Below, piece after piece: positions 27,301-29,590 of a stretch of 64,000 nt of DNA; the stretch's first letter is position 1; every line of letters begins with the position of its first letter. The translations under genes were made by a program, and so were the position numbers. Source of the DNA: an uncultured Verrucomicrobiota bacterium (GTDB taxonomy: Bacteria > Verrucomicrobiota > Verrucomicrobiia > Limisphaerales > UBA9464); assembly GCA_903907925.1 (NCBI GenBank), contig CAIVQB010000127.1, positions 1 to 64,000 of the forward strand, in the 5' to 3' direction. The notes beneath the pieces were generated by a model, which saw only the letters and a list, made by a program, of their open reading frames with translations, did not search any database and had not been told where the DNA came from.

Positions 27301-27519
27301 CGCTGCGGCACGGGCTTCCGCGAGCAGGAGGTCACGGCTCGCACCCGCCGAGCCCACGCCCTCCTTCAACATCTTGATGGCGCACAACCGTTCGAGACCC
27401 GGCTGGCGCGCCTTGTGAATCACCCCCGCCCCGCCCCGACCCACCTCCTCCAACAATTCGTAATTCCCGAACCGCAACGGCGGGGTCCCGGGCGATCCAG
27501 TGAGGTCATCAACATTCAC
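24394..27519 (-). CDS. Serine/threonine protein kinase with C-terminal WD40 repeats
   Basis: FGNYELLEEVGRGGAGVIHKARQPGLERLCAIKML...HCDLKPANVIIDHRDEPQITDFGLA; repeated FSPDGRFLVSGGVDKTARLWDL units. Confidence 0.93.
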   Translation of the reverse strand: MNVDDLTGSPGTPPLRFGNYELLEEVGRGGAGVIHKARQPGLERLCAIKMLKEGVGSAGASRDLLLAEARAAASLDHPNIVGIYEVGEVEGQLFFSMEFIEGENLSSFVRTHTISARKAAIYAEKIAAAIDYAHSRGVTHCDLKPANVIIDHRDEPQITDFGLARRVGPDAPAGMDAASGAGSPNFMAPEQASARFGSIGVRTDVFGIGATLYYLLTDRPPFRGETFADTVEAVMKLEPVRPRALRPGVPRDLETICLKCLEKRPVRRYRNAREVADELGRFLRDEPIHARRITQVERSWRYARRHPLLAGFARATLTLLLVIAIGSPIAAYHINQARHGADQQRVRAEANELRVRRQLYAANLQEAAQAAEAGDTRRTRELLERQDPLAAGARLGSESEGDLRGWEWRFLSALSRGDEESVLPISPLPVLDAAFVGNGRQLVTALSDGTVQLHGLPAGSVPVRKLGGGGATNQMARIAVSRDTERLAVVHFDLQTTNTVLHVIERAGWGELSRFTVAGAVANLAFSADGSHLVLAVMRRAATRLETEIVEVGLDGSGRTSRVSLPSSQRLNVPVFSPDGSRFAYANDDGTLSVRGVAAGSPVIRLRGHDFEPGWVQLVTGLEFSPDGRFLVSGGVDKTARLWDLRQGTATVVLQGHSDAVLATTFSPDGRRVATSSRDRTVRIWDVATGHQIGLLRSRDSVSGGLAYSPNGNTLVSVCAVGEVRFWNVPSAVTRSVPPAEVPAGSLWAELLPDGLHWWSSTPQMEWSLHRLGDPNPMARIADTNLASLRAKTYHPATHRLAYYSRNGLLTLQDLNTGKRRTFDAGRTNPVATVRFSPDGRLLAIGLGAWFMSGTEGTNHLQVWDVEAGRLVREFSGAAEIPVFSPDNRWLASSDSGGRVQLNDVLRGGSRLLGRHSTQVPGLAFSADSTELASGCTDGSIKLWSVASASELATLESQTSGTLSVAFSPDATRLFAGSLDGVVQVWDLKSRLRLASLHGHRKGVTSLAFRDADTLVSGGLDEIRAWHADPQPHGTQERARM

Positions 27520-27603
27520 GCGCCCTTACTCTGCCCCGCTCTGGCGCAGTCTCCAGCGAAATTCGCGCCGACCATGCCGGAAGGGATTCATCCGAAAGGA
27601 GGT

Positions 27604-27709
27604 CAAAGGGCCAACGGCCCGCCCGATACCAGCCTTGGGCATCGCCCAAGGATTTGAACGCGGCCCATCTGATTCGGAGTCCCGCGTTCACGCGGTCCGG
27701 GAGCCCCAC
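27604..27709 (-). repeat. Three-hairpin repeat element, copy 1
   Basis: Minus-strand order: CCGCG-TGAA-CGCGG (27682-27695), CCTTGGGC-GAT-GCCCAAGG (27633-27651), GGGCC-GTT-GGCCC (27608-27620). Confidence 0.8.
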
Positions 27710-27736
27710 GACACCGCCACCGGTTCAACCCGACTC

Positions 27737-27770
27737 TTGACAACGAGGCCGACATTTTACATATGTAAAA
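27737..27770 (+). promoter_or_regulatory. Candidate promoter/operator for the FGE-family gene
   Basis: TTGACA (27737-27742), then 16-bp perfect palindrome TTTTACATATGTAAAA (27755-27770), 4 bp before the ATG at 27775. Confidence 0.4.
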
Positions 27771-27774
27771 CATC

Positions 27775-28971
27775 ATGTTTTCCAAGGGATTTATCTCCGC
27801 ATGTCTGATGGCCGTCGGCGTACTCGGCATCGAGAGGGTTCAAGCTCAGGAGCAAGCTACGGCGTCGGCCGGGATCGAGGGTGGCGTCGTCAAGGGAGTC
27901 ACCGTGACCGCTGGAGGTTCAGGATATCGCAGTGTTCCGTCAGTTCTATTGACCGGCGGAGGCGGGACCGGTGCCGCCGCGACGGCAGTGCTCAAGGGCG
28001 GCCGGGTCGCCTTGATCAACATCATCGAACCCGGAAATGGGTACACCGACGCTCCCACGGTGAACATCGCGGCACCCCCGAAGGCGGGGACGGTTGCCGT
28101 CGGGTCGGGTCCTTCCCTCTTGTTGACAGGTCCGCCCGGAGGAACCAACCGGGTCGAATGGAGTTCCAGTCCGACGGGGCCTTGGTTGAAGTGGACCAAC
28201 TTCGTCGTTGGGGCATTAGGCCAGACGGTGGTGGATCTTTCGGCAGCGGGTTCAACGAAGTTTTTTCGGACCGTTGTGGATTCAACTCCCGAGGGCTTCG
28301 TGTATGTCCCACCCGGAACATTCTTGATGGGCAGCCCGATCTGGGAGGACGGGCGCGATGACGACGAAACCCAGCATGAGGTCACCCTGACCCGGGGCTT
28401 CTGGATCTCGGACCATGAGACGACCCAGGCAGAATACGAATCGGTCATGGGGAACAACCCGAGCAATTTCAAGGGAAGCCAACTTCCCGTGGAGATGGTG
28501 AGCTGGCGCAATGCCGTCGCGTATTGCGAGCAGTTGACCGCCCAGGAACGGGCGGCGGGACGGATCACTTCTGACGAAGCCTATCGGTTGCCCACCGAAT
28601 CGGAGTGGGAATACGCCTGTCGGGCGGGGAGCACGGGAGCCTATTGCGGCGATTTGGAGGCAATCGCATGGTTTTTCCCGTTCTCCTCCTTTACGACGGC
28701 CGACGTGAAGTCCTTGAAACCGAATAACTGGGGCCTCTACGACATGAGTGGCAACGTGGCCGAGTGGTGCGAGGATTGGTACGGAGCCTATCCTAGTGGA
28801 CCGGTGACCGACCCGACCGGTCCCTCCAGCGGCCAGTACCGGGTGTTTCGCGGCGGAAGCTGGAACGATGGGGAGTCGAATCTGCGTTCGGCAGATCGGG
28901 ACGGTGGGCTCCCAGACAAGCACGACAGCTATTCATTGGGCCTGCGCCCTGTCTTCAGTTCGGCTCCGTAA
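27775..28971 (+). CDS. Secreted formylglycine-generating enzyme/SUMF1 family protein
   Basis: Signal-like N-terminus; EGFVYVPPGTFLMGSPIWEDGRDDDETQHEVTLTRGFWISDHETTQAEYESVMGNNPSNFKGS...PVEMVSWRNAVAYC...YRLPTESEWEYACRAG. Confidence 0.9.
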   Translation: MFSKGFISACLMAVGVLGIERVQAQEQATASAGIEGGVVKGVTVTAGGSGYRSVPSVLLTGGGGTGAAATAVLKGGRVALINIIEPGNGYTDAPTVNIAAPPKAGTVAVGSGPSLLLTGPPGGTNRVEWSSSPTGPWLKWTNFVVGALGQTVVDLSAAGSTKFFRTVVDSTPEGFVYVPPGTFLMGSPIWEDGRDDDETQHEVTLTRGFWISDHETTQAEYESVMGNNPSNFKGSQLPVEMVSWRNAVAYCEQLTAQERAAGRITSDEAYRLPTESEWEYACRAGSTGAYCGDLEAIAWFFPFSSFTTADVKSLKPNNWGLYDMSGNVAEWCEDWYGAYPSGPVTDPTGPSSGQYRVFRGGSWNDGESNLRSADRDGGLPDKHDSYSLGLRPVFSSAP

Positions 28972-29003
28972 AGGAACCCATCGGGCCATTTCGGATTGGA
29001 GAG

Positions 29004-29112
29004 GGATGGTGGGCTCCCAGACCGCGTGAACGCGGGACTCCGTGGCAAGGCGGCGGAACCAGTACCTTGGGTGATGCCCAAGGCTGCTATGGAGCGGGCC
29101 TTTGGCCCTTCG
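29004..29112 (+). repeat. Three-hairpin repeat element, copy 2 (inverted relative to copy 1)
   Basis: CCGCG-TGAA-CGCGG (29022-29035), CCTTGGGT-GAT-GCCCAAGG (29065-29083), GGGCC-TTT-GGCCC (29096-29108). Confidence 0.8.
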
Positions 29113-29590
29113 AATGGGCGGTTCACTGACCCGTTCTCTCATTTTCCCGTTTTCAATCCCTCCCGCTTTCGAATCCAACCTCACTCCTACCCCGACCCGA
29201 AGTCCGAAATAGTGGCCTAAACTCAAGGCAATTTGTCCGGTGAATTCCCTGTGAACGGTGCGTGTACAAGTTTGGACAGATTCACCTCGCCGAGACCCTC
29301 CAAAGCCTCATTCTTAATGGCCGATCGGCCTCACTTTTCGCGGAATTCGCCTCAAAATCACCGACTTGTGACTTTTCACAAAAAACCGCTTGAAACCACA
29401 ACCTATGGGGGTAGCGTAAATGCCCACCCCAACAGGATGGGTGCCGAGAATGGCCTAAACTGCCTTTTTTGGCCTGTTTTTTGCAGTATTCCATTAAATT
29501 TCGCGGTTTCCTGGAGGATTCTCATAGGTAGCCGCAATTCATCGTCAGTCGTTGCCAAAATCGAACCCAAACCCGCCAGCCCACCCAGCC

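Follow-up and report, generated by a model that had tools for sequence, protein, structure and literature searches.

The 64,000-nt stretch of DNA analysed here (hereafter the window) comes from contig C127 of a draft genome of 4.6 Mb in 148 contigs, across which a 45-nt two-hairpin repeat, termed AB, is dispersed. AB copies are most probably the non-autonomous, REP- or MITE-like end modules of an HUH-Y1 (IS200/IS605-like) element, mobilised in trans by its transposase TnpA. The repeat has a structure backed by covariation, it is associated with tnpA genes, and its linker co-varies with the protein these genes encode; that the ends are mobile is what we infer.

Two three-hairpin copies of about 105 nt, inverted around an FGE-like gene, had been described in the first-pass annotation of the window, and both are present: the left copy spans 27607-27706 on the minus strand and the right copy 29011-29109 on the plus strand, on either side of an FGE-domain gene. 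In the right copy, hairpin 1 (CCGCG-TGAA-CGCGG) lies at 29022-29035, hairpin 2 (CCTTGGGT-GAT-GCCCAAGG) at 29065-29083 and hairpin 3 (GGGCC-TTT-GGCCC) at 29096-29108, with gaps of 29 and 12 nt. The left copy reads on the minus strand through hairpin 1 at 27695-27682, hairpin 2 (CCTTGGGC-GAT-GCCCAAGG) at 27651-27633 and hairpin 3 (GGGCC-GTT-GGCCC) at 27620-27608, its gaps being 30 and 12 nt. The inverted arms are separated by 1304-1413 nt and are 88% complementary over 49 nt and 97% over 32 nt. The pattern CCTTGGGYGATGCCCAAGG has three matches in the window against 0.05 expected from shuffled sequence, and CGCGTGAACGCGGGACTCC has two against 0.10. In the minimum-energy fold predicted for single-stranded DNA, all three hairpins form in the right copy; in the left copy, hairpin 1 is not formed and pairs with its own spacer instead. 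A 20-nt stretch at the 3′ end of the coding sequence of the FGE gene (28898-28917) also recurs, as a direct repeat with 19/20 identity, at the start of the right hairpin 1 unit (29003-29022); the idea that it is an inserted repeat fragment was discarded, given that homologues align over this region of the protein with no long insertion.

Searching the genome at the DNA level with the right copy returned 42 matches, most of which span hairpins 2 and 3 only, i.e., the unit AB. Thirty AB units aligned with a mean column identity of 94% (CCTTGGGCGATGCCCAAGG-CTGGTATGGNGC-GGGCCTTTGGCCCT), and the covariance model built from them finds at least 111 copies at E<=0.0015, a lower bound with 150 candidates scored. 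Further copies, for which the first-pass annotation had proposed a search, are thus plentiful and dispersed. In the window, model R1 scores the left AB copy (27607..27651, minus strand), which is aligned with 29 others, at 71.7 bits and the right one (29065..29109, plus strand) at 69.6 bits. Each consists of hairpin A, a 12-nt linker and hairpin B: on the left, A at 27651-27633, the linker CTGGTATCGGGC at 27632-27621 and B at 27620-27608; on the right, A at 29065-29083, the linker CTGCTATGGAGC at 29084-29095 and B at 29096-29108.

Covariation on more aligned copies, likewise suggested as a check, proved strong. The alignment comprises 138 AB matches drawn from this genome and its relatives; it was fitted to the model and is hence biased in its favour. 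In it, 96.4% of the cells pair and 11 of the 13 base pairs show double changes, with 193 double-changed cells compared to 57 in shuffles. On none of the five measures does any of 500 shuffles attain the observed value, and in the slid controls the signal collapses; in the first 30 copies, all from this genome, the signal is weaker yet consistent. By crude gene calls, 81 of 96 placed copies lie outside predicted ORFs. Further recurrent palindromes (GGGCTCGGGTGGAACCGAGCCC; GCGGGTCACAGACCCGC) adjoin AB copies at loci L005, L011 and L013-L016, and probably belong to other repeat families.

Hairpin 1, which had been taken as part of one three-hairpin element, belongs to a separate family, H1. This family has 86 copies in the genome at three or fewer mismatches (two for the reversed pattern), and both window units, 97% complementary to each other, are among them. 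H1 was excluded as a member of the AB family because the congener G007 carries 151 H1 copies and no AB match; another relative, G048, has 121 copies. The two families nevertheless meet: in 14 cases (one of them involving a weak AB match) no more than 100 nt separates an AB from an H1 copy, compared to 0.55 expected, always in the same orientation. In seven of these, H1 sits on the inner side of A at a distance of 17-26 nt, which is roughly where the hairpin C described below lies, and in the other seven it lies outside B, mostly at 30-32 nt. The window copies are of the former class, with the left H1 (27675..27706, minus strand) in the hairpin C position 24 nt from A and the right H1 (29011..29042, plus strand) 23 nt from A. 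H1 also occurs as tight inverted doublets with 5-18 nt between the units, e.g., at L325 (C116:33919-33966). No dedicated H1 transposase was identified.

The genome contains two Y1_Tnp genes, on contigs C47 and C75. The former (C47:26980-27432) is an HUH-Y1 (IS200/IS605-like) tnpA located inside an AB array, whose units around the gene carry a G-C for T-A change in hairpin A; since there is an in-frame TAG near its end, this gene may be inactive at present. Upstream of it, a stretch at L142 (G000:C47:24789-25527) consists of AB copies with a 347-nt period and alternating orientation. The C75 gene (L145) has an intact frame and is surrounded by units of the same plan with another linker (CTTTGTTGTC); the two proteins are 51% identical. 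Both exceed the cut-off of the NCBIfam IS200 model NF033573 (59.8 and 56.3 bits), and neither qualifies for REP_Tyr_transpos, the class 2 family, whose cut-off of 80 bits is far above their scores of 19.5 and 19.2. For the C75 protein, the predicted fold (pLDDT 88.5) is by E-value nearest to the TnpA proteins of ISDra2 and IS608; the E. coli-type TnpA-REP structure 4er8 also matches.

AB copies often occur in pairs. Among neighbours no more than 200 nt apart in this genome, 15 pairs are arranged as '-+', six as '+-', one as '++' and one as '--', and the two units of eight '-+' pairs are separated by an inner gap of 98-101 nt. Such a '-+' pair reads B'-A'-C'-C-A-B, i.e., the transposase element minus its gene, and these inverted end pairs without tnpA form a miniature version of about 190 nt. 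Comparable pairs, whose gaps measure about 85-135 nt, occur in many relatives, and solitary AB ends are found as well.

The same anatomy recurs at related transposase loci. We compared 56 tnpA loci, comprising 38 from related genomes, two from this one (these 40 were picked on protein similarity alone) and 16 from named relatives among the Verrucomicrobiota, Planctomycetota, Bacteroidota and Acidobacteriota, with 11 IS200 genes as the outgroup. Most of these genes are bordered on both sides, in inverted orientation, by the same series: hairpin C lies nearest the gene, hairpin A follows after about 21 nt, and a linker of about 9-13 nt leads on to hairpin B. Where both ends are in place, this makes a compact unit of about 700 nt. 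A flank scan run without sequence preference detected ends on one side only for several genes, and the A-linker-B arrangement at 92 of 112 tnpA flanks, in 69 of which the linker begins with CT, compared to 2 of 22 outgroup flanks, none with a CT-start linker—a contrast that is supportive rather than exact, as the base composition of the outgroup differs. Hairpin C is present at 61 of 68 ends (C-A gap with a median of 21 nt and quartiles of 20-24 nt) and has a 5′ foot similar to the one of hairpin B in the same end (score 5.1 vs 3.6, 0/5000). The linkers differ by lineage, with no common GT[AG]G foot; at both ends of one tnpA lineage, L154 (G005) and L158 (G003), they start with CA rather than CT. 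The motif YxxxQxxHH is found in 55 of the 56 proteins and in none of the 11 outgroup proteins. Relatives have between zero and four tnpA matches each. Ends of this plan also occur in other phyla: the chromosome of Planctomycetes bacterium TBK1r has 34 copies with its own end sequences, and an acidobacterial draft has ten, again with their own sequences, including three inverted pairs.

Proteins and ends vary together. At 25 loci, a subset limited to linkers beginning with C, the linkers at the two ends of one gene are 75% identical, as against 31% (0/10000), and protein distance correlates with linker distance (Mantel r=0.36, 0/5000). Five genes with the AB linker type, picked before the tree was built, form a clade with 100/100 support, and their genomes contain 13-108 AB copies compared to a median of two elsewhere (P=3e-4; P=0.0012 without this genome). 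G008, G021 and G019 have many AB copies (43, 36 and 29, respectively) with no cognate gene detected, a pattern that requires gene loss or gaps in the drafts. Taken as a description of AB, the earlier proposal of a structured, REP-like, mobile element is supported by at least 111 dispersed copies, inverted doublets of about 190 nt, a cognate HUH-Y1 gene and patchy counts among relatives.

The complete element thus reads B'-linker'-A'-C'-[tnpA]-C-A-linker-B, with three hairpins per end and the ends inverted. In single-stranded DNA, TnpA would recognise hairpins B and C via their common 5′ foot, cut immediately 3′ of hairpin A, at a conserved C|T that is CA in one lineage, and move or copy the ends in trans; both the foot recognition and the cleavage site are put forward here as a model. 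Neither an empty site nor a transposition event was seen. E. coli TnpA-REP cuts REP DNA at C|T, and CA is a further cleavage site of one related enzyme (PMC8266576). The CA linkers of the L154/L158 lineage match this alternative dinucleotide reported for one TnpA-REP (PMC8266576).

What, then, of the gene between the two window copies? The FGE-domain gene (27775..28971, plus strand; PF03781, 140.7 bits) encodes a protein with a likely signal peptide and without cysteines at the expected catalytic place (FRGGSWNDGESNLRSADRDGG), which we take from established FGE biology to be the relevant position; because of these missing cysteines, the protein is probably not an active formylglycine generator. 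It had been suggested that the repeats could move or recombine this gene, and the order and orientation of the copies indeed fit a tnpA element, so that two inverted three-hairpin ends might mobilise the FGE-like gene as a composite transposon in the way they would mobilise tnpA. The slot it occupies (27519-29552, between a Ser/Thr kinase and ribonucleotide reductase) does change its content, with an arylsulfatase in G006/G007, a MocR-like regulator in G003/G005 and never an FGE gene: tblastn found none in the slot regions of 16 relatives, some of which were fetched as short regions. The two copies, however, are 79% identical to each other, whereas two copies on contig C62 match the right one at 86% and 85% identity, and this closer kinship argues for independent arrivals. 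Nor do such repeats flank FGE genes in general, as none of the other four of the five FGE-domain genes in the genome has AB within about 5 kb. These genes form a secreted multi-copy family of a common kind, with homologues elsewhere in the relatives at up to 58% identity over their length. Orientation alone is unremarkable, given that, of the seven pairs of neighbouring AB copies spaced at 0.6-2 kb, four are '-+'. Intergenic DNA at the slot does not align with that of the available relatives, and homology to G006/G007 resumes only at about 29341. We therefore regard the composite transposon as improbable and judge the FGE gene to be a bystander rather than part of the repeat. From their sequences, the window copies look like two solitary ends, each placed independently and both of the composite subfamily with H1 in position C, which bracket the gene by chance; gene turnover at the slot is real, and nothing ties it to the repeats.

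Two further explanations concern the repeat itself. A plain IS200/IS605-family insertion sequence with relic ends would account for the scores above the IS200 model (59.8 and 56.3 bits), for the fold closest to ISDra2 and IS608 TnpA and for the compact unit of about 700 nt with ends on both sides. This reading is nonetheless unlikely: the tnpA genes of any one genome have diverged from each other and differ in their linkers (51% protein identity here), meaning that the ends and not the genes have multiplied, and the inverted three-hairpin ends are a feature that the IS200 outgroup lacks. Somewhat less likely still is that the hairpins act as RNA, be it as terminators, mRNA stabilisers or the small RNA that had also been suggested. 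Strong covariation suits RNA as well as single-stranded DNA, and crude gene calls place 73 of 96 copies between two genes, 33 of these convergent. Yet by the same calls AB copies occur on either strand where the neighbouring genes are codirectional (17 on the same strand, 13 on the opposite one), the transposase is tracked by the linker and not by the stems only, and the window has no Rfam match at the gathering threshold, leaving the small RNA idea without positive support. Inserted AB copies may still have acquired an RNA role later.

The proposed mobilisation of AB ends by TnpA also has to be placed among known systems. Like REP/REPIN-RAYT systems (TnpA-REP, e.g., the E. coli REPtron), it combines high-copy, short, palindromic extragenic repeats and inverted doublets with one Y1 gene per repeat type, located among its repeats, and with a C|T adjoining a hairpin; it differs in its IS200-like protein with YxxxQxxHH, which is not of class 2, in the lack of a GT[AG]G foot and in having three hairpins per end. 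The signature, the length of about 150 aa (about 148 aa for the subclass) and the low gene copy number agree with TnpA_Y1 subclass 1.2, which the 2018 survey defines by YxxxQxxHH and describes as having no REPs and generally no terminal structures (PMC6006769). Three-hairpin inverted ends at most loci contradict that part of the published description (PMC6006769), not the protein assignment, and here the range of the subclass also covers Verrucomicrobiota, Planctomycetota and Acidobacteriota. With IS200/IS605 elements (IS608, ISDra2) the system has the HUH-Y1 transposase, its fold and hairpin ends in common, whereas the left and right ends of the latter are non-inverted, in contrast to the inverted, linker-sharing, three-hairpin ends described here; moreover, this system has single-copy genes and many gene-less ends rather than multiplied, near-identical autonomous copies. 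TIRYT/TIRtron elements (PMC3733652) likewise place a tyrosine transposase gene between inverted repeats (some of them self-complementary, with a GGGGWSAS motif) and have dispersed dimers, but their proteins are assigned to subclasses 2.1, 2.2 and 2.5, not 1.2, in the 2018 survey (PMC6006769). Class 3 TnpA_Y1 (PMC6006769) likewise has atypical hairpins, a high copy number and a distribution in Planctomycetes and Acidobacteria, but a different Y motif (YV[VI][AENY]EQ) and a reported CnGA foot. Finally, the non-coding units of about 190 nt with the ends of a coding element resemble MITEs, except that movement as single-stranded DNA without target duplication would, by analogy, be expected here.

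What is new here is the link between subclass 1.2 and dispersed three-hairpin ends. A literature search, with subscription papers and supplements outside its reach, found no later account of subclass 1.2 with REPs. We think it rather likely that subclass 1.2 HUH-Y1 proteins represent an additional, widespread type of REP mobiliser, present in four or more phyla. Their substrate would be a modular three-hairpin end in which two REP-type hairpins with a common 5′ foot stand on either side of a palindrome, with the C|T cleavage dinucleotide at the end of the latter. Such a module would tolerate hairpin swaps, giving rise to chimeric ends as with H1 in position C.

It is still an open question how REPs spread; in the systems studied best, the proteins are of class 2 and the foot is GTAG. 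A class 1 protein that is close to true IS200 transposases and has dispersed REP-like ends, built on a clear modular plan with a foot specific to the lineage, would be a possible intermediate on the way from an insertion sequence to a domesticated REP mobiliser. The link would also correct the published negative on subclass 1.2 and account for many of the intergenic hairpins of these genomes, and the dozens of naturally co-varying pairs of protein and foot would provide material on how HUH transposases read single-stranded DNA.
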